Made by a program: the position numbers and the translations under genes. The notes under the pieces were generated by a model that saw only the letters and a program-made list of their open reading frames with translations, was not told the DNA's origin and ran no database searches. A stretch of DNA of 64,000 bases from Cyanidium caldarium (lineage: Eukaryota > Rhodophyta > Bangiophyceae > Cyanidiales > Cyanidiaceae), in the NCBI GenBank assembly GCA_026184775.1, contig JANCYW010000005.1:272501-336500 (forward strand). Reading direction: 5' to 3'. Below, in pieces: positions 24,644-62,247 of the stretch; position 1 is the stretch's first letter; each line of letters opens with the position of its first letter.

Positions 24644-25367
24644 GAGCGCCGCGTACCCAAAAAAAAGCCAACACGCGACACGCGCCCTCAGCACCCCAAC
24701 CCGAGACACCGGTCGACACCGAGAGACGCGGCGCGTAACCGATACGACGCCCGGCGCGACGAGTGCACCCCACACCGTCGCCGACCGATACGCCGACAAG
24801 GAGAGAGAGGATATGTGCGGAGGACACCGTCGGAGGTGTCATACAAGGGCACCGAGCGGTTGTGAGAGACGCAACGGATGCGAACTTGGCATCGACGTGC
24901 GCCCCGGCCACGATACGAGTACGCAACGCGCGTCCGATATGCCAGCAGCACAAGAACTTTATGACCCGTAGGAGGCGGTTGACGTGGCAGTCTGCATCTC
25001 CCACTCGTTCGCTGTCCAGCCGTCCACGCTATCCCTGGCTCCCGCCTCCGGCATCGGCACTCGAAACGCGACGAGCGCGAGCGCGCGCGACCCTCGAAAC
25101 GCGCGGCGACCCGAATGGCCGCCGCCTGGCCGCAGCGGCAGCAGAGGCGGGTGAGCGCGCTTGTGAGCGCCGTGCACGAGAGCGTCGTGCGACCTGACCT
25201 GACCAGTGGAGTGCCTCTGAAGCGAACACGGACACGCTGCGAGGCGGTGGCTGTGGCTGGTTGGGTTGTCGACAGGGTGTGGTTGGGAGTGCTTCGGGGC
25301 GCTTCGGTCGGGCGCACGGGGCAGCGAAGGAGGCGTCGGCGTCGGCGGCGCCCAGGGTAGGGTCGCA
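24644..25367. other. Long divergent promoter region between UEV and the giant ARM/ankyrin gene
   Basis: At 724 bases this is the longest gene-free stretch in the window. It must carry both promoters. No frame in it looks like protein. Confidence 0.55.
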
Positions 25368-31300: not shown

Positions 31301-32540
31301 CGACACCGACTCGTCGTGCGCACACTACTACGTCTGGTGCCGCGGCAACGTGGTGTACTGCGGCAAGTGCGGTGATATTCGCATCTCGCGCAACCAAAAC
31401 TGGTTGGAGCGCGTCAAGCGCCGCACGCAGCGCCGCAAGGAGCGCCTCACCGACGGGCAACTGAGCGCGGTGGAAGAGTACCTGGCGACCCGCAAGAAAA
31501 AGGGCAGCAACCAGCAGCAGAGCGGAGCGGCGGCGATGGCGCCGACTACGACGTCCGCTGCCGCCGGCGGGCGACCGGGCGAGCACGAGGCGGTGCACCG
31601 CACGGCGTCGGACGAGACCATGGCGCCGTCCGGGCGCCGGACACATTCGCGAGAGCCGGATATGCGCGCCGCGGGCCAGCCGTTTTATCCGCTGCAGCGG
31701 GAACCGGAGGGCAACCTGTGGGGGCAGCGGGCGCCGCAACCGACGGGCGCCTACGCCATGCCGACGCCTCTGCGCAACGGGCCTGGAATGGCGTTCGCCG
31801 CGGTCGGTGACGTGCCGGCTGCGGGCATGCCCGGTCTGGAGCCGAGCACGCCCGGCCGCACCGCCTCGCCGTTTGTGGACGCCACCCCGTCGCCGGGCAG
31901 CGTGAGCGGGGGCGAGCGCTCCGGCATCACGCATCTGTCGCTGGGCGGCCGGCTGGGAATGCCGGCGACGGCGACAGCGGGCGTGCCCAACGTGCCGCTG
32001 GCGTTTGCCCACGCGGCGGGCGCTTTCGCGCCACCGTCACAACCGCAACCGACGCTGCCGCTGAATGCGTTGGCGCCTTCGTCGTCGGTGCCGCAGACGA
32101 GCGCAATGCTGGCCGGGTCGCGTCTCGGCACGCCCTTCGATGGTCGGCCGTTCGCGCCCGAACTGGCGCCCGGTGTACCGCCGCTGGCAGTGTCCGGCGG
32201 CAAGGGCCATTCCGGCCCGCCGCTGGGGGTCGCGGCCGGCGACGCGTTCCTCTTCGGAGCGCCGTCGGCGTTGACGCGTTCCCCGGTGGCGGCCGCCGCC
32301 GCCGCCGCCGCCGCCGCAGGACCATCGCCGCCGGCGCCCGAGGCGTTTCAGGACGTGGATTTCGCCAACGAGAACTTCGGTTTCGATATCGACGCCATCG
32401 TGGACGAGCCGCGCAGTCACAACAGCACCCGCCGCGGCGACGGCAATGACGGCCATGGCCGCTCGGGCCGTGCCTCGCGCCAGCGCAGCAACAGCACCGC
32501 TACCAATGCGCGTCGCCATTCCCACTACTCCATCTTTTAA
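25368..32540 (+). CDS. Giant ARM-repeat, ankyrin-repeat, coiled-coil protein with a C-terminal Cys cluster
   Basis: I do not recognise this 2390-residue protein as a known family. Residues ~70-400 form armadillo repeats of importin-alpha type; two carry the W...N pattern that binds nuclear signals in importin-alpha (ECCWIVSNITES and EDAAWVMYNVSA). Residues ~650-1080 hold eight or nine ankyrin repeats (for example GLSVLHLAAAGGNADVCALL, MTALHLACFYGYENVVRVLL, TPLHIAAWKGNLQLAELLL). Residues ~1150-1830 are a long Ala/Arg/Glu coiled coil. Near residue 1985 a Cys cluster C-x-H-x4-C-x6-C-x2-C (CAHYYVWCRGNVVYCGKCG) is followed by a very basic stretch. The last ~350 residues are Pro/Gly/Ala-rich and probably disordered, ending in an acidic patch (DVDFANENFGFDIDAIVD) and a basic tail. 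The start is the first ATG; one 39 codons later is equally possible. Scaffold or transport roles can be imagined but not shown. Confidence 0.85.
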   Translation: MWRAPADGRELGASGSRVGGDGGGDGAVAGLLEGERAAEMAAVMRSWGGDALEGGALAEEEDSDELGDCESGHDDGFESVIRVRTAARLLAAQLDTLEDDALLQAFCAAICELFGDGIHNEYIQAILEANVVPKIVRILEPLLDGCNEEEEEEDAEEPTSASGARGAERQNSFSFFKATGLVGKLDSLRAAARETRNRHERPRAPGKRAAPAAASSSRPGRPLSTALQAAALQVIGNIACGDDRQTQVIIDCPNALRILRVLLASPERSIRKECCWIVSNITESAHQVGDVVDAGILSPIVALLGLNDGACCEDAAWVMYNVSACEDAHFTQELVRCGAVSVLSGHLMSTRELDVAWKGCSTLSAVALRALCNMMNTLPEVVRPQLAAAYGVERLDRLAFAHSYELTDGALQLAASGLLSAHYGVRSCRANVDTRQPCLLCEMGAQESVSGGEGAAAAECPHHTRETEATVSVDDAYDRARDTTGTGVCPPKKTTGPTITFPPPLSDVCQAARDSAPAACAFCDGELPPYDAQADDYVGGGRQEHLAALLARAVRLGHQRCLQSLIDRRMQWSDRQVIAEPLIPEGGFGSVAPWEETASPTTRQRLPGARDIPEPALSGKDDAVSAAGSAAEATLAPATQQTAGARPSPPCKSVLMLAAELGRASCLVTLLGRLRPVLGESAGHRHRVSLMAVAAYKGHTAAVRVLLQYGELENGDGADVNHLDASACVQSRCETCGEGLSVLHLAAAGGNADVCALLVRQCGMDVNAVDGKEQRPLSFAACYGWSDTCRMLLELGADVAAADCRGMTALHLACFYGYENVVRVLLEHARRADAAAAERDGEDEEDGGAEDNGGRRPWPRRRLLQRLVNARSSGNTTPVHYAIQGRAVHCVSLLLAAGCEVRDPDPQTGMRNPLLVLAAEAGNLDIVQRLLQVRAPVNCTASIKVVIARDRGSALDEHGRADTIELVDQFTPLHIAAWKGNLQLAELLLQQQQQQHGAEVNRRSPNGWSALDFAVLGGHEQLTRLLLSRGAVVDRAPKPLPTSATAAAVGDGGTTAARTLVQHAAIMQNKEIVRLLVERLRHQEDDEHGETFVDAVGRPEPSATTSSDTASADVGDTAAEAPLHFGTPPDGSDGPALEPPGGGLASAASSPRKRKETDREQQRHRDARRREAEATEARERLLEAIHARSVPRLCEAISHGNKVVLQLAAGYVKSSAPRLTDSEVSLSAEVERARRVLSALQSQQLRAAADREREAHEARRRAVQQQLQEAIEAFCGAGDPKVFDKALRKAGKVDVDESDATLQRIRDLRALLADLQNKVRALEASMKRVQGREPERAHVEEIRAHVAACEAAIAALVRAGASAGAFQPIVRARETLTMADSTAAEIDEQCAMLERRRADEQAMAAELRASIAALEASLREHGQASGRTDCLTRVERALEETARQVCAQLTIAELRADCETLLETVRRSFAKAVRAERKRLRQACAQGDAADIEAAMAAAQALQVRALEADIQSAAATRDRLREQTAALAEWSALQARREALTTAELHALREQLEKLGLVEEAEQARLLGEQLAREDRTRHLLEAAIDEAVKARERSEAETADGGDGAAAFIRFGDAEVALCKRLRDLAERARRFEALADRVQRAEDELRQLAHVAECALRATMPTTAGAEDEGAAAAAAAASGPGWEEAAAATTTTAAAAPESGAERAWVQAAQQRVTAQIDQLQHDLEQLRAAATRYGECFGAPATAAKTADRATSATAPSALLVAAGTRIDELVERKARLEERYRELERQRQDMAAMEHMTQRRSSGSDAADAAEGGHHRRELSDAVRSSRADGAHQTAAAATATSSSSSSSSPHRAVGSTATATKTATATPSAPSPERRRRTPTDANRASASKPAEAAAKPKPEGRKKGTERATTTAATAKRSHAKGAISTGDASLGVKDTSTAAAAGTPGATPTKKTPDEPEATLAGDMRTVTTDTDSSCAHYYVWCRGNVVYCGKCGDIRISRNQNWLERVKRRTQRRKERLTDGQLSAVEEYLATRKKKGSNQQQSGAAAMAPTTTSAAAGGRPGEHEAVHRTASDETMAPSGRRTHSREPDMRAAGQPFYPLQREPEGNLWGQRAPQPTGAYAMPTPLRNGPGMAFAAVGDVPAAGMPGLEPSTPGRTASPFVDATPSPGSVSGGERSGITHLSLGGRLGMPATATAGVPNVPLAFAHAAGAFAPPSQPQPTLPLNALAPSSSVPQTSAMLAGSRLGTPFDGRPFAPELAPGVPPLAVSGGKGHSGPPLGVAAGDAFLFGAPSALTRSPVAAAAAAAAAAGPSPPAPEAFQDVDFANENFGFDIDAIVDEPRSHNSTRRGDGNDGHGRSGRASRQRSNSTATNARRHSHYSIF

Positions 32541-32665: not shown

Positions 32666-34405
32666 CTAAACACGCACCCGATCGATGCCCATCGAGCACC
32701 GTCCATCACCTGCACACACCTCCGTCACCTCCGCATCGGGGAGGATGTGCGCTTGGCCGCTGCCGGACACGACGCGCCCGATGCGCCACGCCGGCCACCC
32801 GCCATCCTGCTGCTGCAGCGCCCGACAATATCGCTCGGCGACGGCCGCGCTGGACAGTCCGTCGGCTGCGGACGGTCCGAAGGCGATCAACAGGCCGCCG
32901 CTGGTCTCCGACGAGCGACCTTGGCGCAGACCGAACAGGCGCCCGCCATCCAGCGCCGCATCCGCCGACGACATGCCCGCGATGACCGGCAGGCGGTCGA
33001 TCTGCAGGTCGACCGCGGCTCGCTGATGCTGTGCAAGGTTGCGCGCGTGCCCCAGCAGACCGAAACCGGTCACGTCGGTGGCGGCGTGCGCCGGCCCCAG
33101 CGAATGCATCAGGCGGGCGGCGATGGCGTTTAGGCGTGCCATGCTCGCCGCGGCCACGTCGTACGCGTGACACACCTGCTGCGGCGTGATGACCGCGTCG
33201 ACGGGCGCATAGCGCAGACGGGCCTTGCGACCGCGTTTGACAAGCGCCGCCGGGTCACCGGATGCGGGCGTCAGAGAAGGAATGCCGGCGTGGGATGATG
33301 CAGCGGCAACGCCGGCTGTCTCCGGCACCTCCTCCGCATGTCCGTTGCCATCGCTCGTCGGATTCCCGTCACCTTGCAGGCGCGCCATACACGCTCCGAA
33401 ATGTGCGTCCTCCATCTCGCCCAGCCACTGATACAAATTCACCGCCACCTGCGTGCCCAGCGGTTTGGTCAGCACCAGCGTGTCGCCGGGCACCGCGCCG
33501 TCCGGGAAGACGACCTCGTCGCCGCGCACCACGCACTCGGCCACGCCGCCGATCAGCGGCCACGGATTCAAGGTGGTCTGGCCGCCGGTCACCGCCGTGC
33601 CCGCCTGGTGACACGCGTCCATAAAACCGGCCATCATCGACTGCGCTACGGCGCCGCGCAGTTCGTCGGATGGAATGTCGCGCGCCGCGCACAACAACAT
33701 CAACACCGTGTCCGGCGGTCGGGCCAGGCCCAGGGCGTACGCGTCCGACAGCACGTTGGCGGCGGCGATGCGGCCCATACGGTACGGGTCCTCGATGAGC
33801 GGAAAGAAGAAATCGGTGGTGCTCAGCAGATACACCTGGGACGGGTCGTGGCGGGCGACGGGTGCGCCGTCCGTCGCCGCGGGCGCCAGCACCCGCACGA
33901 TGGAGGCGTCCATCCCGACGCCCAGCTCCACCGGCGAGGCGCGATCGTCCGGCGGCCGCCACGCGCGCGCCAGTCCGCCCGAACCCGCCAGACCGTCAGC
34001 GCCATGTCGTCGCACCCGCTGCATGGCGCCCATCCAATGGAGCAGCTCGTGCTGCGGCACCTTGCAGCCGCAGCCTTTCAGCGCGCTGTACCTCGTCAGG
34101 CGGAAGCGCGGCACTAGATGATGACTCCGTGGATCCGCTTGCGGGAAGGAGGCAGTGTGCGCCAACACGCGCTCGAGCCACGCCTGCGCCCGGCGCTGCA
34201 CGTAGTCGTCGGCCCGCAGGCGCGGCGCATCGGCCTCCGTCCAAGGCGCCGAAAGCGCGCTGGTGCCTACACCACCGGGCGCCACTGGAGGCGGAAACAA
34301 GGCGCGCAGAGCCGCATCGTCCGCCGGGTCGAACTCGGACGCGCGATCGAGTAACGTGGGCACGTGTGCGTCATCGGGAGTGCCCTCGAACGGGTTGTTC
34401 TCCAT
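32666..34405 (-). CDS. SELD: Selenophosphate synthetase (selenide, water dikinase)
   Basis: The enzyme makes selenophosphate from selenide and ATP for selenocysteine synthesis. The 579-residue protein has the catalytic loop [13 protein letters not shown] near residue 110, with Cys (TGC) where some homologues have selenocysteine. [28 protein letters not shown]-type sequence (seen here as [19 protein letters not shown]), [38 protein letters not shown] and [13 protein letters not shown] follow in order. It is longer than the usual ~390 residues because of a ~100-residue N-terminal extension and a polar insertion after the second third. The N-terminus ([12 protein letters not shown]) is acidic, so the enzyme is cytosolic. 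It implies that the organism uses selenocysteine or selenouridine. It is divergent from UBE2C. Confidence 0.95.
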   Translation of the reverse strand: [579 protein letters not shown]

Positions 34406-34836
34406 GCGGGGAGCGACGCGAAAAGAGAGGCTGTGGGTGCAACAGCGGAGGGGCCGCGGTTCAAGTTGGAAATCGTCACACACCAGCAGAAGAGTCGACC
34501 GGGCCGTGCTACCCGCCGGACTCCCCTGTCGGCTACCCAGCGCGCGGGTGCGGGTGCAAGCGGCTGCGTTCTCGCACACACACACACACACACACGCATC
34601 GCGTGATGATCGCTTCCCCGAGACGGTTACGAACGGAACCTCACCTGCGCGATCCACGCACCGTTGGGAAGCGCTCGCGCCCCCCGCCCGTCCTACGAAC
34701 CGTTTCGCGCTTGGCGGCCGATTTCGGTGGCTTTTCGCGGTCTCTCTCGGGGGTGGGCGCTGCCGCCGTGGTGCGTCGCGCGCTTGTCCGAATCGGGACT
34801 GTACAGAGAGCGCCTTCCCGACTGCATCGATAAACC
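34406..34836. other. Divergent promoter between SELD and UBE2C with a CA repeat
   Basis: A 431-base spacer carrying both promoters and a (CA)n run at 34575-34595. No gene is supported. Confidence 0.55.
34575..34595 (+). repeat. (CA)n microsatellite
   Basis: About ten CA units in the SELD/UBE2C divergent promoter. Confidence 0.9.
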
Positions 34837-35484
34837 ATGTCCGCACCGAGCGCGTCCACATCCAGTGCTGCAGGTCGATCGGTTGGCACCTCGGTGACCA
34901 AACGGCTGCAGTCGGAGCTGATGGCGCTCATGCTGGAGGGCGCGCCGGGGGTTTCGGCGTTTCCGGCGGGGGAGGACCTGTTGACGTGGCGCGGCACCAT
35001 CTGCGGGTCGGAGGACACGGTTTATGCGGGTATGCGGTTTCAGTTGACGCTGCGGTTTTCGACGGATTACCCGTACGCGCCGCCGCAGGTGCAGTTTGCC
35101 ACGCGCTGCTTCCACCCGAACGTGGACTACGCCTCGGGCGCGATATGTCTGGACATTTTGAAAGAGCAGTGGAGTTCAACGTACACCGTGCGCACCATAC
35201 TGCTGAGTGTGCAGTCGTTGCTGGGCGAGCCGAACAACGACAGCCCGCTGAATGGGCATGCGGCCAGTCTGTGGGACGCCGACGCCGACGAGTATCGGCG
35301 GGTGTGTGTGTCCAAGTACGAGGAGGCCACCGGCGAGAAAGTGGGCGCCGCGGCGGCAGCGACGACGATGGCGGCGCCCTGTCTCAAGGTCGAAGCGACG
35401 CCTCCAACGGATGCGGCGGCGGACGATGCCGCGCATGCCACGCCGCGGCGCGAGAGTCCCACGGCTGCCGCCCGAGCGCCGTGA
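34837..35484 (+). CDS. UBE2C: Ubiquitin-conjugating enzyme E2 C (APC/C partner)
   Basis: UBE2C starts ubiquitin chains on substrates of the anaphase-promoting complex, driving exit from mitosis. The match to human UBE2C is close: SVTKRLQSELMALMLEG, VSAFPAGEDLLTWRGTI, YPYAPPQVQF, CFHPNV, GAICLDILKEQWSS with the active-site Cys, and VRTILLSVQSLLGEPNNDSPLN. The N-terminal ~20 residues are Ser/Ala-rich, as in the animal enzyme. A C-terminal tail of ~50 residues (Ala/Thr/Asp) is extra and looks disordered. Confidence 0.95.
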   Translation: MSAPSASTSSAAGRSVGTSVTKRLQSELMALMLEGAPGVSAFPAGEDLLTWRGTICGSEDTVYAGMRFQLTLRFSTDYPYAPPQVQFATRCFHPNVDYASGAICLDILKEQWSSTYTVRTILLSVQSLLGEPNNDSPLNGHAASLWDADADEYRRVCVSKYEEATGEKVGAAAAATTMAAPCLKVEATPPTDAAADDAAHATPRRESPTAAARAP

Positions 35485-36578: not shown

Positions 36579-36799
36579 GAGGAGCGGATGCAACCGGAGT
36601 GTGCTGCCGAGGGAAAGGCTCCACACCACGAGGCGGCGACGCGCCGCAACAGCAACCGCGCGGGGTGCCGTGGCTTGGGCGCGCGCCCGACATCGCGGCT
36701 GCCGCTGCCGTCGTCTCGGCGTTGCGCACGCGGCAGACCGTGTGGCCGGTGAGCCGACGCCGGCGCCCGGTGCGCGCGGGACCGACGCGTCGGCTGCGT

Positions 36800-39700
36800 A
36801 TGGATAACGATGACGTCGCTGGTGATGGGTGGGAGGTGGCGGTGGTGCGGACGCCGATCGACGCTGCGGTCGCGGACGGGCAGGCCGCGGTGGACGGTGC
36901 GCTGGTAGGGGCTGCTCGGTTTGCGGCGGGCAAAGAGCACACGACGGTTGCGTCGTCTGCAGGAGAGCGCGCTGTGGGACTGGCGCGCGGCGGCAACCGA
37001 GCCGCGCTCCCGTTCTACGTGGTCTCGCGGTGGTTGGTGGAGGAGGGCGCGGCGGTGGCCAAGGGTCAGCCGGTGGCGGAGCTGGTGCGCGTGGCGCATC
37101 GGGTGGTGGATTCTGGGGTCGATGAATCGGCGGCGCCAGCACCTGGAGTCGATGCCGCGGATGGCCGTTTGTCGGCAGCCGCCCGCGGCGGTGCAACACG
37201 CTCCGGTGGAGCGTCCGGCTGGGCACTGGGTCGAGTACAGCTGGCGGCGGCGTGTTCGGGGCGTGTGCGGCGCCTGCTGGTGCCGGCGCACGAGCGGGCC
37301 TCGCAGTTGGCCCGTCGATGGCTCGACGGCGACGGCGTGCACGCTGCCGCCGAGGCGGTCACGCAGCTGCTGACGCAACTGCCGCTGCCGTCGCACATCG
37401 AGCCGGGCGCGGCCATCGCCGAGATCGAGTACTGCCCACACGATCTGCAGTATCGCGGGATATGCACCTTGTGCGGGCAGGAGATTCGCGCCGACGACGA
37501 CACACCGCCCTCTGCGGCGCATGCCCTGCTGGAGAATATCGACGAGGCGGCGTTGGCGGAGCGTCAGGCGGCGGCGGCGGCCGCATACGGCGACGGCGAC
37601 AGCGGGAGGCGCGGGCCCGACCGACTGGATGTCGGTGGACGATCGACGGTGCCGCCGAGTCGGTTGCACGTGCCGCTGGCCTACCAGAGCCAGCACCTGA
37701 CGGTGAATTACCGCACCGCGGAACGACTGGAGGAGGAGAATGCCCGGCGGCTGGTGGCACAGCGCAAGTTGTCACTGGTGCTCGACCTCGACCACACCTT
37801 GCTGCACGCCACCGACGACCCGCGAGCGACGGAGGCGTTGCGGGGCCTGGCGTGCATGCTGCAGGCGGATGAGCCACTGGGAGTGCTCGAGGCGTTTCGG
37901 GATATGTTGCCCGAGGCGGTCTCGAAGGATGCCCATTCGAAACCGAGCACGGCAGCAGAGACGGACCGGGCATCTTCTCCGTCGTCGACCGCCGCGGTTG
38001 AGGCACCGGCGCCAGCCGCTGAGGAGGCGGCGTTGCAGCGCCTGCTGCAACATCTGGGCATATTCTCTTTCCAGCTGCTGCCATCTCTGCCGAACACACC
38101 GCCGGAGGCGGTAGCTGCAGCTCCGGTGGCCGCACTCCCGCTCGACTCGACGCCGATTACGTACTACATCAAACTGCGCCCGGGCTTGCAGCAGTTTCTG
38201 CAGCGCTTGGCGCCGCTCTTCGAACTGCACATCTACACGATGGGCTCGCGGCCGTACGCGGACCGGGTGGCGTCGATGATCGACCCGGACAAGCAGCTGT
38301 TTCAGGGGCGCATCACCTCGCGCGACGACTTTGCGGACGGCCGCCTGAACCAGAAGAACCTCAAACACGTGTTTCCGTGCGACGACTCCATGGTGCTGGT
38401 GGTGGACGACCGCGAGGACGTGTGGGTGGGTGGGGAAGCGGCGACGGCGGCCGGGGCGCCGGCTTTCCCCAATCTGATCAGAGCGCGGCCGTACTACTTT
38501 TTTCGCGGCCTGGAGGAGGCGTACCAGCGCACGACGGTCACCGCGGCGACGGCGACGGCGGCATCTCCGGGAGAGATGTCCGCGGCCGACGCTGTTGATG
38601 CCGTGGGCGGCGCGGAGATGCGCGATGCAATGACGGTGCCGCAGCGATTGCGGGTGTGGTTTGCGGCCGACCGCGCCGACCGAGAGCATCTGACGCGCTT
38701 GTACGAGCTGTTGCGGGAGTGTCATCGCCGTTTTTTTGTCGAGTGCGACCGAGCAATGGGGATGGCGGAGGCGGCCGACGGTGGCCGAGAGGGGCAGGAG
38801 ACGGTTGCGCCTCATCTTCGCGCGGATGACGAGTCGTCTGCAACCGCTGCCGCTGCGGATGCCGACGAGACCGCAGTCACGGCGGCAGCGGCGATGGTGC
38901 CCGAACCAGGCGGCGACAGCATGCGGCGCGAAACCTCGCCCGCCGTTTCCTCCGTCGCGCCGGTCGCCTCCAGTATGTCGTCGGTGTTTGGCAAGGAGGC
39001 ATCCACGGAGCCGGAATCGCCGACGGCGTGGGGGGCGCAGGGTGACACGCTGGGCGGAGACACTGAGGCGGCGGCGGCGGCGGCGGCGGCGACGGCCTCG
39101 CCGCGCATCGTTGTAGCGTTGGCGCAAGCGGACTTGGGCGGCCCCACCCGGGAGGCGATACGCACCACGGTGGCGGACGGGGCGATGGCGGCGACTCCAG
39201 CGGTGCAGCCGACGGGAGAGGCGGCAGCGGCAGCATGCGGCAGCGTATTGCCGCGCCACGGCCAGCGCCCCGATGCGACTGCCGTGCCCTTTGCGGGCGG
39301 GGACGGCTCACTGGCCGGCCGCCTCGCGTCGGGCGCCACCGCCGTGGTGACTGCCACGAGGCTCCGGGCGACGGCACCACAGCGCCACGCGCTCGACGGC
39401 AACGAGTCCATGGTGTGTCACTGCGGGTCGGCGCGAGACAACACGCTGCGTCAGACGATGGCCGGCGCGGTGCCGCGACCGCCACTGCACGCCGCGGTGT
39501 TGCCGTCGTCGGGTGGCGACTGCCCGATCAGCATTCTGGGGACGGACGGCGCTGGCGACAGCGAGCTGTTGCTGCTGCGGCGGCGGTTGGATCGATCGCA
39601 GAGCGTGGCCATCGCCGAGGGATGTAGTGTGCGCGCTATCGGTTACGGCGAGGGCGTTGTTGAGGAAGAAGAGGAGACGACGGCTCTCGGTCTGCGAGAC

Positions 39701-41476
39701 AGCGTGGAGCTGGACAGTGTGGGCGAGCCGTCGCCGTCGCCGGCGCCATCGTTCCGCCCGATCGAGTGGGATCGCCAAAGCGAGGTGCACGCCGAGCATG
39801 GTGACGAACTGCCGCTGCGCCCAGTGTGCGAGGAGGTGGAGGCGGCGAGCGACGGGATGGTGAGCGACCGGCCGTCGTTGCGGCAGCGGGCGATCCAGCG
39901 GGAGATGCGGGCCGACGGCGGTGTGGTAATGGAGGTGGGGGCGCGCGGCGAGCCGATGAACAAGCGCAGTCGACTTGAGGCGTCGACGACCCGCCAGCCC
40001 GAGGAGGATGCGTGGTCGTCAACGTCATCTTCGTCGGTGCCCACGGTGGCGGCCGTGCGTCGCGGCAGGGCCGGACGAGGCGGCGGCCGTCGCCGGCGCC
40101 AACCGCGACGACGACAGCCACCGCGGCGGCATCGTCGCTCGGCGGAGCTGGACGGCAGCGGCTCGGACTCGACTACACTGGCCACCGTCGGCAGCGCGGT
40201 GGTGCCGTCGTCGCCGCCGCCGCTGCCGCCGCCGCCGCGACAACCTCTGCGTCGCAGTGCGCGTGTGCTGGCGTCCAAGAGGGCGGCGGTGGAGCGGCGA
40301 CCGGTCGACGATAGTGGAGACGCGAAGCGAGACGGTAGGTGCGCTGCCGCTGCCGCCGCCAAAGAGATCGTCGCCGGCGCCGCGGCGACTTCTCCGCGCG
40401 CGCCCCGTCACTTGAGCGCCGCGTTCATCGCGCCCGAGGTGGACGCAGCGTCGGTATCGCGGGCTGGTGGACGTTCCGCCTCGCCTTCCGGCTGGCCGGC
40501 ATCGCCGCACTCGGTGCACGAGGCTGAGGAGGCGCCCCGACGCACATCGAACGTCGAGCATCCGCCGCAAGCAGAGGCTCAGCAACTACAGCACCCGTCT
40601 CAGCGACGCCCGCGACGATTGGCGCGTCGCTCGGATGCGGCCCTGCCGCCCGAAACCAGCGCCGACGCAGCTTCAACAGCCGCTGCGGCTGCAACCGCAC
40701 CCGCTCGCCGCCGCCCGACAGCGCCCCTATCCCGCACCGCCGCCCCTTGGACACCGCGCCGGCGATGGCGGCCACCGGCGAACGTGAAAGTGATCATGGC
40801 CACCCTGCGCGGCAGCGTGCTGGCCGGCTGTCACCTGTGCTTTTCGGGCGTGATGGCGCGCACCGGCGGCGTGCAGCCGGAGGAGCATGAGCTGTGGCGT
40901 CTGGCGGTGCGTCACGGCGCCACCTGCTATCGCGAGCTGGTGCCCGAGGTGACGCACCTGGTGGTGGACGCGGAGCGCGGTCGGGACACCGCCAAGACGC
41001 ACGCAGCGCGACGGATGGGCGGCGTGTTCGTGGTGCGCACCGAGTGGTTGTGGCATAGTCTGGAGGAGGTGCGGCGGGAGAGCGAGATCGACTGGACTCT
41101 GGACGAGGACGAGGAGGAGCGGGTATCGGGCGATGTGCATGCGACGACGACGACGACGACGACCGACGCGTCACCATCGGCGACGGCGGACAACGACAAG
41201 CGGAGACGCTTTAAGGCGTGGCTAGGCGTGGAGCGGGTGCCGTCTGGCGAGTCGGAAGCGGCGTATGTGCTGCGACGGTATCGTGAACACATGAGCGTGC
41301 TGCGGGCGCAGCGACTGCAGTCGGCGCACGGCGAGCGGGAGGATGGGAGAGGGACGAAGGTGGCAGAGTTCACCCGGTCACCACCACCACCACCACCATT
41401 TTCCGATACGGCAGCCGCGGACGACGACCTGCTCGAGTCGGAGTTGCGCGCGCAACTCGGCGACGGTGCGCCCTAA
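36800..41476 (+). CDS. FCP1: RNA polymerase II CTD phosphatase FCP1, enlarged
   Basis: FCP1 removes phosphate from the polymerase C-terminal repeats so the enzyme can be recycled. This 1558-residue form has three recognisable parts. Residues ~70-230 contain a biotinyl/lipoyl-like block (SRWLVEEGAAVAKGQPVAEL) and a zinc-like YCPHDLQYRGICTLCG motif. Residues ~320-600 are the phosphatase: LVLDLDHTLLHAT with the catalytic DLDHT, IKLRPGLQQFL, LHIYTMGSRPYA, LFQGRITSRDD, LVVDDREDVW. A BRCT domain lies at ~1334-1425 (HLCFSGVM, HLVVDAER, VVRTEWLWHSLEE). Between phosphatase and BRCT are about 700 residues of Ala/Arg/Ser/Glu-rich sequence, making the protein ~600 residues longer than human FCP1. Start at the first ATG. 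Confidence 0.95.
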   Translation: MDNDDVAGDGWEVAVVRTPIDAAVADGQAAVDGALVGAARFAAGKEHTTVASSAGERAVGLARGGNRAALPFYVVSRWLVEEGAAVAKGQPVAELVRVAHRVVDSGVDESAAPAPGVDAADGRLSAAARGGATRSGGASGWALGRVQLAAACSGRVRRLLVPAHERASQLARRWLDGDGVHAAAEAVTQLLTQLPLPSHIEPGAAIAEIEYCPHDLQYRGICTLCGQEIRADDDTPPSAAHALLENIDEAALAERQAAAAAAYGDGDSGRRGPDRLDVGGRSTVPPSRLHVPLAYQSQHLTVNYRTAERLEEENARRLVAQRKLSLVLDLDHTLLHATDDPRATEALRGLACMLQADEPLGVLEAFRDMLPEAVSKDAHSKPSTAAETDRASSPSSTAAVEAPAPAAEEAALQRLLQHLGIFSFQLLPSLPNTPPEAVAAAPVAALPLDSTPITYYIKLRPGLQQFLQRLAPLFELHIYTMGSRPYADRVASMIDPDKQLFQGRITSRDDFADGRLNQKNLKHVFPCDDSMVLVVDDREDVWVGGEAATAAGAPAFPNLIRARPYYFFRGLEEAYQRTTVTAATATAASPGEMSAADAVDAVGGAEMRDAMTVPQRLRVWFAADRADREHLTRLYELLRECHRRFFVECDRAMGMAEAADGGREGQETVAPHLRADDESSATAAAADADETAVTAAAAMVPEPGGDSMRRETSPAVSSVAPVASSMSSVFGKEASTEPESPTAWGAQGDTLGGDTEAAAAAAAATASPRIVVALAQADLGGPTREAIRTTVADGAMAATPAVQPTGEAAAAACGSVLPRHGQRPDATAVPFAGGDGSLAGRLASGATAVVTATRLRATAPQRHALDGNESMVCHCGSARDNTLRQTMAGAVPRPPLHAAVLPSSGGDCPISILGTDGAGDSELLLLRRRLDRSQSVAIAEGCSVRAIGYGEGVVEEEEETTALGLRDSVELDSVGEPSPSPAPSFRPIEWDRQSEVHAEHGDELPLRPVCEEVEAASDGMVSDRPSLRQRAIQREMRADGGVVMEVGARGEPMNKRSRLEASTTRQPEEDAWSSTSSSSVPTVAAVRRGRAGRGGGRRRRQPRRRQPPRRHRRSAELDGSGSDSTTLATVGSAVVPSSPPPLPPPPRQPLRRSARVLASKRAAVERRPVDDSGDAKRDGRCAAAAAAKEIVAGAAATSPRAPRHLSAAFIAPEVDAASVSRAGGRSASPSGWPASPHSVHEAEEAPRRTSNVEHPPQAEAQQLQHPSQRRPRRLARRSDAALPPETSADAASTAAAAATAPARRRPTAPLSRTAAPWTPRRRWRPPANVKVIMATLRGSVLAGCHLCFSGVMARTGGVQPEEHELWRLAVRHGATCYRELVPEVTHLVVDAERGRDTAKTHAARRMGGVFVVRTEWLWHSLEEVRRESEIDWTLDEDEEERVSGDVHATTTTTTTDASPSATADNDKRRRFKAWLGVERVPSGESEAAYVLRRYREHMSVLRAQRLQSAHGEREDGRGTKVAEFTRSPPPPPPFSDTAAADDDLLESELRAQLGDGAP

Positions 41477-44155: not shown

Positions 44156-45649
44156 TCAGTCGGGCACGTGCTCCGACAAAAACGCCTGGAACTCGTCGCG
44201 GTCGATGCGGCCGTCACCGTTGCGGTCGGCGACGCGCAGCATCCAGTGTAGGCTCTCGGTGCTGAGCGAGCGCACTTCGTCGGCGCCGAAATGGCGGATC
44301 AGCGCGCGCACCAGGTGACGCGTGGTGAGTGCGGCGCTGCCATCGCGCAGCTCGTCGAACACGTGCGCCGCCTCTTCGGGCGGCAGCGTGCGCCTCCTCT
44401 TGGTGCCGCTCTTGCGGTCGACGGTGGCATTGGTAGGGATGGCGGAGGCAGTGGCGCTCACCTTTGGAGCAGGCGGAGACGCCGAAGCGGACGTAGAGGA
44501 TGCGGAACGATGCTGCCAATCGGCATCCGTCCCGTCGTCGTCATCCACAATGGCTTCTTCTTCTCCTTCTTCTCCCTCACCCTCCTCCTTCACCTCCGCG
44601 GCATGCTTCTCGCTCTCCACATCCTGTTCGTCTCCACCGGCATGCGCATCGGGAGCGCGCTTGCGCTGCACTGCCGGAACGTACACGCTGGTGCGGCCGG
44701 CGACTTTGAGCACACACACCCGCTTGCCATCTGCGGTGCGCGCGGTGGCCGCGCGTTTGCCGTCGGCGCCGCGCCGTTTCCTGCCTAGCGACCAACGCAC
44801 GTGAAACAACCACTCGCGCGGGTACCGCGACGAGTCCGCATGCACCGCGCAAGCGGTGCGCACCACGTACTGCATGGCGTCGTGCAGCGCGGCCACCTCG
44901 GTATCGTCCAGCGTGTTGACGCGCCGCTCCGGATGCAACCGTGCGGCGCACAAAATTTCGTCGGCCAGCCAATTGCCGATGCCGGCGGCGAACGACTGAT
45001 CCAGCAGCACGCGCTTGAGCGCCAAACGCGCGTGGGGCGCCAGTCGGTGTCGGAAATCGGACGCGGAGGGCATTTCTTGTAGAGGATCAAATCCCAGCGC
45101 CTGCAAGTGCTCCTCATCGTGCGGATCGGCTTGCCAGCCAAGGCGTATGGTGGCAAAGCGGCGCGGATCTTGCAACGCCACTTGCGTCGCGGCGCAGGTG
45201 GAGGCGGCCCCTCGCCGCTTCCGTTTCGAGGCGCGCCCGTCTGCCAGTGTGAGCACCAGGCGAGCGTGCGCCGGCGGCCAAGGCGCACCAGCCGTCGACT
45301 CAGCGCCTCTCTGGCTCGAACGTTTCAGGGTCTGATACACCAGCGACGGTTCGCATTGCCGTTCGGCCTCGATGGAGCCGGTCATGCCGAGGTGCAAGAA
45401 CAGACGCGGCGGCGCGTCAAATTCCAACCACAAGTGCTTGCCCCAGCGCCCAGCCCCGCGCACGACACGCCCCGCGAGAGCCGAAAAGTCGATCGCCGCT
45501 GCAGACGTTCCAGCATTCCCCCGAGCCGCGTCGCCCGCCTCCCAGCGTCCTCGTTCGTACGCGCCCCATTCGACGTTTTCCAAGCACCTGCCGACGCAAT
45601 AGCGCTCCAGCTTTCTCCGCGCATGCTCCACCTCCGGTAACTCGGGCAT
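44156..45649 (-). CDS. Fpg/NEIL1-type DNA glycosylase fused to a C-terminal EF-hand domain
   Basis: Residues 1-320 are a formamidopyrimidine-DNA glycosylase, which removes oxidised bases and nicks the strand. MPELPEVEHARR supplies the catalytic Pro-Glu; GRWGKHLWLEF carries the conserved Lys; LFLHLGMTG, DPRRFATIRLGW and the helix-two-turn-helix DQSFAAGIGNWLADEI follow. GRTSVYVPAVQRKR is a 'zincless finger' as in plant FPG and NEIL1. Next come ~90 residues of Glu/Asp/Ser/Ala linker. The end (residues ~425-497) aligns with one lobe of calmodulin: a degenerate first hand (HVFDELRDGSAALTTRHLVRAL) and a canonical second hand with the loop DRNGDGRIDRDE. The reading is continuous through all parts, so this is a real single frame. 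Calcium control of repair is an inference. Confidence 0.93.
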   Translation of the reverse strand: MPELPEVEHARRKLERYCVGRCLENVEWGAYERGRWEAGDAARGNAGTSAAAIDFSALAGRVVRGAGRWGKHLWLEFDAPPRLFLHLGMTGSIEAERQCEPSLVYQTLKRSSQRGAESTAGAPWPPAHARLVLTLADGRASKRKRRGAASTCAATQVALQDPRRFATIRLGWQADPHDEEHLQALGFDPLQEMPSASDFRHRLAPHARLALKRVLLDQSFAAGIGNWLADEILCAARLHPERRVNTLDDTEVAALHDAMQYVVRTACAVHADSSRYPREWLFHVRWSLGRKRRGADGKRAATARTADGKRVCVLKVAGRTSVYVPAVQRKRAPDAHAGGDEQDVESEKHAAEVKEEGEGEEGEEEAIVDDDDGTDADWQHRSASSTSASASPPAPKVSATASAIPTNATVDRKSGTKRRRTLPPEEAAHVFDELRDGSAALTTRHLVRALIRHFGADEVRSLSTESLHWMLRVADRNGDGRIDRDEFQAFLSEHVPD

Positions 45650-46041: not shown

Positions 46042-47223
46042 ATGTTGGGATTCGTGAGCTCGTTTGTGGGCGGTGCGGTGGGAGCGCGCGGTGCGCCGGC
46101 GCCGCGCGCGGCGTGGGCGTGTGGGCAGCGCGCGTCGTCCACGTCGGCGGCGCCGCTGTCCAAGCTGCGGATGGAGGCGGAGACGAAGCGGCAGGGCGAG
46201 CGGCAAGAGGAGAAGGAGACGGGCTCGTCGACGACCGTACCGGTGTCGAGCGCGCCGGTGCAGCCGGGCGCCACGACCCCGCTGCGGACCTCGGCCAACA
46301 CCAAGCTGGGACAGGTGACGCAGGCGCGCTTGCGCAAAGTGGGCGACTTGATGACCAACCCGGAGCGCCAGATCGAGGCGTACCGCGTGCCGCCCTACTC
46401 GGTGCCGGGGCGGGACTCGGAGGTGAGCCAGCGCACGGAGCGCCTCTACCGCATCATGCGTCAGGTGTTCGGCAATGGACACCTGTTCGGCACCGATCTG
46501 GTCGAGGTGAACAAGTGGGTGAGCTGCTACACCAACGGCGAGCTGAGCACCAAGGAGTTTGTGCGGGCGCTGGCCAAGACCGAGACCTACAAGGACAAGT
46601 TCTGGCACGGGCGCGCGCCGTTCGGCAAGTACGGCGCGGTGGAGCTGGCGTTCAAGCACCTGCTGGGGCGCCGCACCTTCAACGCCCAGGAGAGCGCCGC
46701 CGTGCAGGCAGTGTACCACAGCAAGGGCTACGACGCCATGATCGACCACATCATCGACATGGAGTACGACAAGGCGTTCCCGTTCAAGAACGACCGGTCG
46801 GACAACATCCCGCACTGGCGTGAGGCGCCGTACTACATGGGCCGCAAGCCGGAGCCGGAGGCGCTGCAGCCAGGTCTGGAGCGGGCCACCGGTGGATTGC
46901 GCGCCGCCCAGCTGTACGAGTTCCGCGTGCGTCTGGGCTCGCAGAATCTGGGCGTGGTGGCCGGCGGCATGCCGCCGAACGCGAACCTGAAGAACAAGAC
47001 CGGCGAGCAAGTGTTCCGCGTGGTCACTGCCGGCTACCGCGAGCCGATGGTGAACGGCGGCGCGCCGGGCTACTCGGTCGGCCAGTCGTACACGCGCTTC
47101 AACAAGTTCAGCAAGGTGGCGCGCTCGACCCGCACGTACCTGGTCCCGTTCAGCGAGCTGATGCAGACGTACAGCCGCATCTACAAGTCGGGCGGGTACA
47201 TTCGCCGCGTGGATCGCGTGTAA
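46042..47223 (+). CDS. Nuclear-encoded phycobilisome linker polypeptide
   Basis: A linker that joins phycobiliprotein hexamers into rods of the plastid light-harvesting antenna. The first ~45 residues (MLGFVSSFVGGAVGARG...) form a transit peptide with Phe at position 4, and a Glu/Lys/Gln-rich segment follows. The linker domain (PF00427 type) spans about residues 105-260: RVPPYSVPGRDSEVSQRTER, YRIMRQVFGNGHLFG, STKEFVRALAKTETYKDKF, VELAFKHLLGRRTFNAQES and YDKAFPFKNDRSDNIPHW are hallmarks. The C-terminal ~130 residues resemble the extension of rod or rod-core linkers. Class within the linkers is not resolved. Its presence in nuclear DNA points to a red alga or glaucophyte. Confidence 0.93.
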   Translation: MLGFVSSFVGGAVGARGAPAPRAAWACGQRASSTSAAPLSKLRMEAETKRQGERQEEKETGSSTTVPVSSAPVQPGATTPLRTSANTKLGQVTQARLRKVGDLMTNPERQIEAYRVPPYSVPGRDSEVSQRTERLYRIMRQVFGNGHLFGTDLVEVNKWVSCYTNGELSTKEFVRALAKTETYKDKFWHGRAPFGKYGAVELAFKHLLGRRTFNAQESAAVQAVYHSKGYDAMIDHIIDMEYDKAFPFKNDRSDNIPHWREAPYYMGRKPEPEALQPGLERATGGLRAAQLYEFRVRLGSQNLGVVAGGMPPNANLKNKTGEQVFRVVTAGYREPMVNGGAPGYSVGQSYTRFNKFSKVARSTRTYLVPFSELMQTYSRIYKSGGYIRRVDRV

Positions 47224-47512: not shown

Positions 47513-48427
47513 TTATCGAGCGGCGCGACGGGCCTGCCGTCGACGTTGCCACTCTAGCGCCAGAGCGGCCTCGGTGTCCGGCTCCAAGGTGGTCACGCTG
47601 ACGGAGGCGCGACAGCCGGCCACCGGACATGGCGCCGCGTGCCCGTCAGCGAGCGGCGTACGCGGTCGCAGTCGGTGGTGGCTGCGGAGGAGTTGCTCGA
47701 TGGCAGTGCGTTCGTAGGTGTGTAGACAGCGTGTGTTGCGCACCGGCTCGTGCATCTCGGCGCCGGTGATGGGACAGCGCGTCATCGCGCGGTCGTCGTC
47801 GGGATGCCCGTGGGCGGAGGACGCAACCACTGCCGCCGCCGTTGCTTCATCGTCGCCGATATGGAGAGGCGCAGCGGTCGACCCGATAACGATACCGTCC
47901 GCCACACCGTCTGCACCGGCGTTGCTCCCGTCTCCCAGTATCGCTCGTACCTGTCGAGCGTGCTGCACGGTGGTGAGGCGCGCGCGACGCGGGGAGGCGC
48001 GCTTCGATTCGCGCCGCACCGCCTCCTCCCACGTGCGCTGCATCCACGCCTCCGGCAGTTCCAATTCACTCTCCCGGCTCGGCTGTTCCCGACACGCTGC
48101 CAGACACTGCTGTGCGGCGGTCGCGCGGATGTTCGCGGCCAGCTCCGCCTCCACACACGTCTGCAGCGCCGCACGCACCTTTTCGCGCAGATCGCCGTCG
48201 CACTCCGGCGCCGGCAACACCTCTCCCTCCTCGCTCCACGCAGCAGCCTGCATCCAAAAACGCACCGCCGTACGTAAATGATCCGACGTGGCCACAGCGC
48301 GCGCCTGGAAACGGGCGTCGAGCGCACTCAGCTCGCCCAACCGGTTGGCCGCATCGGGAGCACCCACCGTAGAGCCCGCGGCCACACTCTGCGCTGCCTC
48401 CACCAGACCGCCACGAGATTCGGCCAT
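47513..48427 (-). CDS. NSE2: NSE2/MMS21-type SUMO ligase of the SMC5/6 complex
   Basis: The 304-residue protein ends with an SP-RING: TRCPITGAEMHEPVRNTRCLH, then YERTAIEQLLRSH, CPVAGC and VTTLEPDTEAAL. This matches human NSMCE2 'CPITkEEMkkPVkNkvCGHtY...CPqiGC', giving the single-zinc SP-RING of SUMO E3 ligases. The N-terminal ~200 residues are mostly helical, as expected for the part that binds the SMC5 coiled coil, though they are Ala/Arg-rich and poorly conserved. NSE2 supports recombination repair and replication-fork stability. A Gly/Ala-rich stretch separates the two halves. Start MAESRGGLVEAA is the ATG giving normal length. Confidence 0.85.
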   Translation of the reverse strand: MAESRGGLVEAAQSVAAGSTVGAPDAANRLGELSALDARFQARAVATSDHLRTAVRFWMQAAAWSEEGEVLPAPECDGDLREKVRAALQTCVEAELAANIRATAAQQCLAACREQPSRESELELPEAWMQRTWEEAVRRESKRASPRRARLTTVQHARQVRAILGDGSNAGADGVADGIVIGSTAAPLHIGDDEATAAAVVASSAHGHPDDDRAMTRCPITGAEMHEPVRNTRCLHTYERTAIEQLLRSHHRLRPRTPLADGHAAPCPVAGCRASVSVTTLEPDTEAALALEWQRRRQARRAAR

Positions 48428-48648
48428 GACGTGAAGAAGAGAGCGAGCTCTGAACGCTCCACCAGACGGAAACCACGTCTCACGGACGCAATCGGCAGGG
48501 GGCGCACGCCACGAGACGCGCACCGGCCCTGACGCGCGCGCTGGGCGCCCGTCGCGCCGCCGTGCCGGATCGGAATGCGTCGCTCTCGCGCGCGTCCCCG
48601 CACCAGCCCATCGCGGCGACGGATCGTCTTCATAATGTTGCCTGCTCG

Positions 48649-50787
48649 ATGAGCTCGTCGCGCAACTCGGTGACACGAATATCTCAAAGTGGAGAGTACC
48701 TCTGGGGAAAAGAATATGATCAGTCGGTGGCGGAGCGGGTGCGGCAAGCGTACGGCGAGTGGCCAGAGGCGCCCTCGGCGACGAGCGTCCATAGCCGCCG
48801 TTGGACGGAGGACGATGCGGCGCGGTGGGTGCATTGGGCGAGTCGGCCGTTGCCGGCGAAAGATGCGGAGGTGATGTTTGTATTGTGTAAAGTGCGCGAG
48901 GCGGCATCGGCTGGGTTGTCGGAGGCGCTGCTGGGGGCGCTGCGGCGGGTGATGGTCTCGCGGTCGTATTACGAGTATATCGGCGGGCGTTGCGGGACGG
49001 TGGCGGTGTTGGAGCGCGGGCCGGTGTGGCTGGCGCGAGCGCTGTCGTTGGTGTTGCGTGCCTGGTGGCAGCGGGTGCGTGAGGATGCGCCGCGGATGTG
49101 GCAACGGCTGCGACAGGAGGTGGGCGTGCGGGATGTTCTGGCGGCCGGCGGCGGGTGGTCGCGGACATTGCGACAGACGCGGCAACGGCTGGCACAGTGG
49201 TTGCGACCGCCGGTCACGCTGGCGGAGATGGAGCGCTGCGAGCGCGTTGCGGCACTGCATGCGCTGCGACGGCTGGAGGGGGCGCTGGCGGTGCTGGTGG
49301 GCCGGCATCACGAGGCGCTCGCGCGGTTGCACTCTATGCAGTCGTGCAGGGTGCCCGACGTGAATGTACGCTGGCGACCGCTTTCGGACTGTTGCCAACT
49401 GGCCGGGCATCTGCTGCGCGAGCTGGACGCCGGCGATCTGCCGGGCATCGAGCGCGTGGCGTACGCTCCGCTGGACCTGCATTCCGACGCGCCGGCGGAG
49501 CCGCAGCGCCTGCTGGCGGACATGCTAGACGAGTTGCAGCAGACGAGACGGCGACTGGCGGCGATACCGCGGCAGATGACCGTGCGAGCGGCGATCCCGC
49601 TGCCGCCCGCACCGGACGTCGTCGATGCCAGTGTCCGCCGCCTGGCGGAGTGGCCATTGCCCCGCGTCCATCTCGCGCATCCGGCGCACGGGCAACGACA
49701 CTGGGTCGGATACACGGTGAGTACGGTGGCGGCCGCTCTGGCACTGCGACGCCTGAGCGCGGCACCGGACCGCACTGCTCGCTACCTGGCGACCCTGCGG
49801 GCGCAAGCGGTGGCGTTCTGGCAGGGCCGCATCGTCGCGCCGCTCGCGTCGGTGTACCGGGAGGTGTTTTTGTCGTCGTACAAGACGTCGATGAGTCCGG
49901 ACTCGGTGCATGCGGAGCGCGAGGCGCTGCAGCGCATGGTGACCGACTTTACCCGCGAGACCTACCGCAACGCGTCTGCGGAAGAGCGGCGGGCGGCGGA
50001 GTCGCAGGCGGCGCGCGGCGACCTCGCGCCGGTGATGCAAGTGTACGAGCGGCAGCTTCGCAACCCAGTGGTGAACATGTTGGCCGGTGACGTGATTCGG
50101 GCGCTGCTCATCCAGGTGCAGAAGTTGAAAGTGGATGTGGAGGAGGAGATGGTGGTAGTCGATGCGCTGGTGCGCGCCAACGAGCTCAACTTGCAGGTGG
50201 CCGCAGCGGTGCCCGGAGTGCTGATGGTGGCCGTGGCGACGATGGCGGCGGTGCGCGCGGGGACGCGCTGGTGGCGCAGCGTACGCTCCACCGAGGTGGA
50301 TCGCTTTGGCAGCGGCGGCGCTTGGTGGTCGATGGGGATGAGCGCGCGACACACGGCGGCCGAGCGGGCGCGCTGGCTACTGCGCGATGTGGAGCGGGTG
50401 TTGACGGGCGGTGTGGAGAGCGCCGAGGCGGTTTCCAGGGACGAGACGGTGTCGGAAATGCAGGAGGAGACGGGAGGGGCGGGTGTGGATGAGGCCGCCG
50501 CTGCAGCCAACGGAGGGGATGCAGCTGTTCGATCCGATGCGCTGCTGCTGCCGCCGCCGACCATCCACCGCTATGAAAACACCGGACGCGTCCTGCTCAC
50601 CCTGAGTGAACTGGAGGAGCTGGCGCGCACGCACGCCGCCCAACTGCACCTGCGCACCGCCGCTCAGCTGGACGCGCTGTTGCGCGAAGACCTCGCGGAC
50701 CTGCGCACCGCCTCCCTGAGCGCCGCCCAGAAGCTGCGCACCATCGAGCGCATACGCTGGACGTATGCCTGCTTTCGAGCCGAATAA
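48649..50787 (+). CDS. NCA2: NCA2-family mitochondrial membrane protein
   Basis: NCA2 was found in yeast as a factor controlling expression of mitochondrially encoded ATP synthase subunits 6 and 8. The 712-residue protein matches its core: HWVGYTVSTVAAALALRRLS, SMSPDSVHAEREALQRMVTDF, and the signature NPVVNMLAGDVIRALLIQ with VQKLKVDVEEEMVVVDAL and RANELNLQVAAAVPG. The last block runs into a membrane segment (VLMVAVATMAAV). A second hydrophobic region lies at the first block. A Glu/Ala/Gly-rich insertion sits at residues ~590-640. Start at the first ATG (MSSSRNSVTR). The stop codon overlaps an AATAAA. The gene is divergent from NSE2 across 221 bases. Confidence 0.85.
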   Translation: MSSSRNSVTRISQSGEYLWGKEYDQSVAERVRQAYGEWPEAPSATSVHSRRWTEDDAARWVHWASRPLPAKDAEVMFVLCKVREAASAGLSEALLGALRRVMVSRSYYEYIGGRCGTVAVLERGPVWLARALSLVLRAWWQRVREDAPRMWQRLRQEVGVRDVLAAGGGWSRTLRQTRQRLAQWLRPPVTLAEMERCERVAALHALRRLEGALAVLVGRHHEALARLHSMQSCRVPDVNVRWRPLSDCCQLAGHLLRELDAGDLPGIERVAYAPLDLHSDAPAEPQRLLADMLDELQQTRRRLAAIPRQMTVRAAIPLPPAPDVVDASVRRLAEWPLPRVHLAHPAHGQRHWVGYTVSTVAAALALRRLSAAPDRTARYLATLRAQAVAFWQGRIVAPLASVYREVFLSSYKTSMSPDSVHAEREALQRMVTDFTRETYRNASAEERRAAESQAARGDLAPVMQVYERQLRNPVVNMLAGDVIRALLIQVQKLKVDVEEEMVVVDALVRANELNLQVAAAVPGVLMVAVATMAAVRAGTRWWRSVRSTEVDRFGSGGAWWSMGMSARHTAAERARWLLRDVERVLTGGVESAEAVSRDETVSEMQEETGGAGVDEAAAAANGGDAAVRSDALLLPPPTIHRYENTGRVLLTLSELEELARTHAAQLHLRTAAQLDALLREDLADLRTASLSAAQKLRTIERIRWTYACFRAE

Positions 50788-62164: not shown

Positions 62165-62247
62165 GGTGACGTGGCCGAGTGGTTAAGGCGACGGAATGAG
62201 GTTCCGTTGGGCGCCAGCCCGCGCGCGTTCGAATCGCGTCGTCACCA
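62165..62247 (+). tRNA. tRNA-Leu, anticodon GAG
   Basis: All arms fold. Acceptor GGTGACG pairs with CGTCACC; the D arm contains TGGCCGAGTGG (A box); anticodon stem ACGGA/TCCGT encloses the loop ATGAGGT, giving anticodon GAG for CUC/CUU. A long variable arm (GGGC-GCCA-GCCC) makes it a type II tRNA. The T arm is GCGCG-TTCGAAT-CGCGT (B box). The discriminator base is A, as in tRNA-Leu; tRNA-Ser would have G. No intron. A T6 run follows. Most eukaryotes use AAG rather than GAG for this codon box, though budding yeast also has a GAG gene. Confidence 0.9.

Follow-up and report, generated by a model that had tools for sequence, protein, structure and literature searches.

Results

Architecture of the locus

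The window analysed here, i.e. the whole stretch of 64,000 nucleotides from the red alga Cyanidium caldarium (contig JANCYW010000005.1, positions 272,501 to 336,500), has a GC content of 64-71% when measured in 4 kb steps; a table in PMC13353863 gives 65.7% for the C. caldarium genome and 37.6-55.0% for the remaining cyanidiophytes. On its reverse strand lies one ATG-to-stop frame of 497 codons with zero internal stops, which combines a DNA glycosylase of the Fpg family with a C-terminal EF-hand lobe and comprises the following features:

44156..45649 (-): Fpg glycosylase-EF-hand fusion gene, 497 amino acids (open reading frame listing, Pfam, codon log-odds)
44660..45649 (-): complete Fpg glycosylase, probably of the plant/fungal type, residues 1-330 (Pfam, alignments, predicted fold)
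44660..44740 (-): zincless finger with GRTSVYVP, residues 304-330 (23-row alignment)
44426..44659 (-): acidic linker, residues 331-408 (charge count, model confidence)
44390..44425 (-): basic patch TVDRKSGTKRRR, residues 409-420, charge +5 (sequence)
44159..44389 (-): EF-hand lobe, residues 421-497 (Pfam, PDB sequence search, predicted helices)
44192..44227 (-): canonical EF loop DRNGDGRIDRDE, residues 475-486 (sole match of the loop pattern across all six frames of the window)

The gene diverges from a nuclear-encoded phycobilisome rod linker gene (46042-47220, (+); PBS_linker_poly, 1.7e-21, and CpcD in Pfam); their starts are 392 bp apart, and both may share a promoter region. The surroundings further contain a 2424-codon open frame with Armadillo and ankyrin repeats (25266-32537, (+)), an AIR-synthase-related protein of 731 codons (32669-34861, (-)), an FCP1-like CTD phosphatase with a BRCT domain (36599-41476, (+); 1625 codons) and a tRNA-Leu (GAG; 62165-62247, (+)), the sole Rfam match at gathering score within the window. 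A frame with an Nse2-type MIZ zinc finger (47516-49195, (-)) overlaps a frame with an NCA2 domain (48562-50784, (+)); as this overlap spares the domains that were matched, both frames probably start further in.

The N-terminal part resembles plant FPG

Pfam assigns residues 1-167 to Fapy_DNA_glyco (E 4.3e-22) and residues 185-275 to H2TH (E 1.1e-18), both above the gathering scores. For comparison we used a 23-row alignment, consisting of the C. caldarium protein and 22 full-length Fpg frames from one bacterial phylum (of 25 such frames three, L014, L028 and L035, were left out; L028 and L035 coincide in their coordinates with L006 and L012), and a three-row alignment of the C. caldarium protein, Arabidopsis FPG1 (AtFPG1) and one bacterial Fpg. 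M1-P2-E3, K71, N226 and R319 are invariant in 23/23 rows, R163 and F165 are nearly invariant in the same alignment, and M89, R163 and F165 are invariant in the three-row alignment. We take P2 to be the catalytic residue once the Met has been removed, K71 to be the Lys of the β-sandwich, N226 the Asn of the H2TH motif and R319 the Arg of the finger, while M89, R163 and F165 presumably correspond to those residues which occupy the space vacated by the flipped base. Thus, with the Pfam domains above their cut-offs and the catalytic residues conserved, the full Fpg-type glycosylase with PELPEVE and H2TH that a preliminary description of this DNA had proposed is confirmed.

The same holds for the lack of a zinc site in the finger. 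At the columns of the zinc-binding Cys residues, which are Cys in 22, 21, 22 and 22 of the 22 bacterial rows, the C. caldarium protein carries R304, D307, V324 and V327, i.e. all four zinc cysteines are replaced and the finger is therefore zincless, as in FPG1. In a search of PDB sequences AtFPG1 matches across residues 1-339 with E 4.8e-39 and 138 bits vs 64 bits for the best bacterial Fpg chain, and the score against TIGR00577, the equivalog model of bacterial Fpg, is 140.4 bits and thus under the curated cut-off of 203.3. An AlphaFold model based on the 23-row alignment has a mean pLDDT of 69.8, with pLDDT >=90 in 172 of the 497 residues, most of which, judged by block means, are located in the Fpg part. 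The best fold matches of this part are the AtFPG structures 3twk (8.3e-23), 3twm and 3twl, among the best 50 of 362 matches. The zincless finger, the TIGR00577 score below the cut-off and the best fold match to AtFPG together point to a plant-type FPG, an assignment made by comparison with AtFPG1 and bacterial Fpg, and the protein is probably active. The label 'NEIL1-type' given earlier is loose, the relative being of the plant FPG1 type, which has the zincless finger in common with NEIL1.

Plant FPGs act on Fapy and hydantoin-type lesions as well as on AP sites. Eukaryotic Fpg reportedly does not excise 8-oxoguanine, as the article on the AtFPG structure states in its title. By analogy, Fapy, hydantoin lesions and AP sites are the likely substrates of the C. 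caldarium protein.

Linker and basic patch

The glycosylase is followed by a linker (residues 331-408) that is as acidic as described previously, with a net charge of -16 and an acidic core (residues 336-376) containing 19 Asp/Glu residues in 41 positions. The charges of linker and Fpg part are thus opposed (-16 vs +15). In the alignment-based model pLDDT is <50 at residues 345-422 and the block means of the linker are about 28-48, suggesting that the linker is probably disordered. It leads into the basic patch TVDRKSGTKRRR (residues 409-420), which we regard as a candidate nuclear localisation signal.

The C-terminal lobe contains one canonical EF-hand and probably a degenerate one

Two Pfam models exceed their cut-offs in the C-terminal lobe, although by a narrow margin, namely EF-hand_1 (residues 467-492, E 1.8e-6, 27.5 bits vs 25.4) and EF-hand_5 (residues 471-491, E 1.7e-6, 27.7 bits vs 25.9), whereas the pair models EF-hand_7 (1.3e-4) and EF-hand_8 (8.8e-5) as well as EF-hand_6 (9.7e-5) stay under their curated cut-offs. 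Among PDB sequences troponin C is matched with a whole-sequence E of 2e-6 by the entire protein and of 1.6e-9 by the last 82 residues alone, values that sum several troponin EF-hands; for the single stretch of troponin C that spans both hands (residues 423-491, 69 aligned) the independent E is about 7e-4. The preliminary description had proposed a domain search of this very region, and its outcome agrees with the EF-hand assignment. Both AlphaFold models predict helices at residues 424-435, 443-454, 464-476 and 484-494, and these are spaced like two EF-hands. The block means of pLDDT are 67-87 in a model calculated from the single sequence and 53-73 in the alignment-based model.

In hand 2 the loop DRNGDGRIDRDE, as read from the sequence, has all coordinating positions of the EF-loop consensus. 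Hand 1 (LRDGSAALTTRH) is devoid of acidic residues at positions 1 and 12 when, in our own reading, its LTT is aligned with the calmodulin ITT. The combination of one canonical and one degenerate hand suggested beforehand is thus supported, and we infer that the lobe takes up one Ca2+ via hand 2, hand 1 being structural. A loop pattern after PROSITE PS00018, extended by one hydrophobic residue, has a single match when all six frames of the 64 kb window are taken together, and this match lies in the lobe.

No EF-hand is found among the best 50 of the 362 fold matches of the alignment-based model, all of which are Fpg/Nei proteins, and the single-sequence model yields 0/51 matches at E 0.001, EF-hands included, a search that carries no meaning given the poor overall quality of that model (mean pLDDT 41). 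The EF-hand assignment is therefore based on the sequence, where the Pfam cut-offs and the loop carry it.

Coding evidence across the linker

There are no in-frame ATG codons between codon 259, inside the H2TH domain, and codon 470, inside the lobe. Codon log-odds, calculated relative to other genes in the window (five stretches with 1045 codons in all), are 0.051 for the Fpg part, -0.219 for the linker and 0.414 for the EF segment in frame 0, which is the best of the six frames in each segment (next-best frames: -0.262, -0.643 and 0.066, respectively). In a synonymous-codon score frame 0 is best in the Fpg part and the linker, the EF segment reaching 0.237 vs 0.290 for one reverse frame. As the GC content is high and three of the six frames, two of them reverse, are free of stops in the linker segment, the open linker is weak evidence by itself; by arithmetic, the chance that 92 codons stay open at 67% GC is about 12%. 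The argument for a fusion relies instead on a single frame showing homology at either end, on a lobe that has no start codon of its own, and on the codon bias. A scan for the donor patterns GT[AG]AG[TGA] and GTATG gave one GT[AG]AG-like site in the frame, at its nucleotide 1069, in the linker.

Search for further fusions

The contig scans were seeded with short peptide patterns, and only close relatives are within their reach. In viral contigs the protein itself gave 15 stretches matching the pattern and 0 confirmed relatives, and the three-row alignment 101 stretches, again with 0 confirmed; in genome contigs 129 pattern matches yielded one relative, a non-fused bacterial Fpg. In phages 14 records have a match, and all 14 matches lie within residues 1-275, none of them covering 80% of the protein. 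Matching plasmids amount to 43 records, 0 of which cover 80% of the protein, and the 20 matches listed all lie within residues 1-275. In one bacterial phylum 128 of 149 genomes have a match, none of those listed extending beyond residue 373; a second, overlapping draw of the same phylum, searched with an Fpg model, gave 105 of 119 genomes. At none of 42 Fpg loci of that phylum did open stretches of >60 residues contain an EF loop. These collections are viral, plasmid and prokaryotic, and the results do not speak to eukaryotes, uniqueness or conservation.

In the literature we found no published Fpg or other DNA glycosylase with an EF-hand, papers on red algae, Cyanidium caldarium and Cyanidioschyzon being judged by the titles listed. 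EF-hand, calcium and calmodulin are absent from the main text of a review of noncatalytic glycosylase domains (PMC9266487), and glycosylase, EF-hand and DNA repair are absent from the main text of a paper on Cyanidiales genomes (PMC6629376). The earlier statement that no Fpg/Nei enzyme with a Ca2+-binding domain was known is consistent with that review, the literature and the viral, plasmid and prokaryotic sequences.

Discussion

As read from the DNA, a single frame carries both domains, the catalytic residues and one canonical Ca2+ loop. With one 497-residue frame and Pfam domains above the curated cut-offs at both ends, the in-frame fusion of a glycosylase and an EF-hand lobe noted at the outset stands, and we regard it as a real and apparently new domain architecture within a known enzyme family. 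For the lobe we infer a regulatory function in the glycosylase fusion.

Our preferred reading, which we hold tentatively and at somewhat less than even odds, is that a nuclear gene encodes a catalytically complete bifunctional glycosylase/AP lyase of the FPG1 type that bears a calmodulin-like lobe on a flexible acidic linker and responds to Ca2+. Binding of Ca2+ would open the lobe, which could then grip a target helix. This helix might be located within the enzyme, i.e. in the basic patch or the finger region, so that the acidic linker would either be released from the positively charged DNA cleft or be clamped there; the tail, being opposed in charge, could lie over the cleft. Alternatively, the lobe might grip a partner, i.e. 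a repair or chromatin protein. In both cases the Ca2+ transients of oxidative or other stress might activate or recruit repair. Ca2+-responsive repair, as brought forward in the preliminary description, may reasonably be proposed. The more specific idea that the glycosylase senses Ca2+ directly via its built-in lobe, and that transients switch or relocate the first step in the repair of oxidised bases in this extremophile alga, is rather doubtful. To our knowledge no Ca2+-gated DNA glycosylase has been known so far, and this one would be the first. Tails, partners and modifications all take part in regulating the DNA glycosylases known so far, as outlined in sections of PMC9266487. If true, a covalent Ca2+ sensor on an enzyme that starts base excision repair would couple stress signalling directly to repair. 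Since transformation of C. caldarium is described in a part of PMC13353863, the organism is genetically tractable and the Ca2+ idea could be tested by a single loop mutation.

The catalytic Pro directly follows the start Met, and any transit peptide would need to be removed precisely at this point. An N-terminal transit peptide is therefore unlikely, and the protein probably acts in the nucleus rather than in the plastid, which weakens the link to light that had been suggested along with oxidative stress. We do not maintain this link, as nothing nearby hints at it except the divergent gene of the phycobilisome linker, and the neighbourhood says little in a compact genome. Likewise, we set aside a plastid or light role of the protein, since the catalytic N-terminal Pro argues against a transit peptide and the neighbouring gene is otherwise the sole hint.

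A docking role of the lobe without Ca2+ regulation is nearly as likely as Ca2+ regulation. The fusion would then be real and the lobe a module for constitutive docking or stabilisation that recruits the glycosylase to a partner, e.g. a chromatin or nucleotide-excision factor, just as centrin serves XPC; Ca2+ would be bound permanently or be irrelevant. The pairing of one canonical with one degenerate hand and the long flexible linker would fit such a module, and so would the tail of NEIL1, which a section of PMC9266487 describes as an interaction site for several partners. Loop 2 as read from the sequence keeps each Ca2+-coordinating position, however, which speaks against it, and overall we consider constitutive docking a plausible, though not the leading, explanation.

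It is unlikely that the fusion is recent and lineage-restricted and that its lobe is without a selected function. That no second fusion was found in the viral, phage, plasmid and prokaryotic collections could be taken in its favour, but these collections are without red algal genomes and the absence carries no information on age. Moreover, the lobe has both an intact loop and the highest codon log-odds of the three segments, and drift would erode both.

Finally, that our reading unites two neighbouring genes or runs across an intron or an assembly error, which had been named as the case against the fusion, or across a frameshift, is highly improbable when start codons, donor-like sites, codon bias and stops are considered: the donor-like site at nucleotide 1069, seven out-of-frame ATGs in codons 334-407, the lower third-position GC of the linker (0.652 vs 0.764 and 0.880) and its two open reverse frames may be seen as hints, but the lobe lacks an in-frame ATG start, frame 0 remains the best coding frame across the linker, and a passage in PMC13353863 reports ORF introns in 42 of 4,930 C. 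caldarium genes, i.e. in <1%.

Comparison with known systems

Among known systems AtFPG1/MMH (3twl, 3twk, 3twm) is closest to the C. caldarium glycosylase, being its best match in both sequence and fold, with 38% identity in the aligned catalytic part. Both share the N-terminal MPELPEVE, the H2TH motif and a zincless finger with GRT-YVP (GRTTAYVP in AtFPG1, GRTSVYVP in C. caldarium). However, the match to the 297- and 310-residue chains of AtFPG1 ends at residue 339, and in the C. caldarium protein the acidic linker and the EF-hand lobe come in addition, as do insertions within the catalytic part.

In human NEIL1 the finger is likewise zincless, and the flexible C-terminal tail is able to fold back on the core, as described in a section of PMC9266487, which provides a precedent for such behaviour of a glycosylase tail. 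In contrast to the lobe described here, the NEIL1 tail is portrayed there as mostly disordered, an EF-hand being unmentioned in that section. The lobe itself resembles those of troponin C and calmodulin, with a putative EF-hand pair that can be aligned over both hands, but it has only one canonical loop and is covalently joined to a DNA glycosylase. Finally, an EF-hand module already serves a DNA-repair protein in the complex of centrin 2 and XPC, where it is a separate polypeptide and the pathway is nucleotide excision repair.
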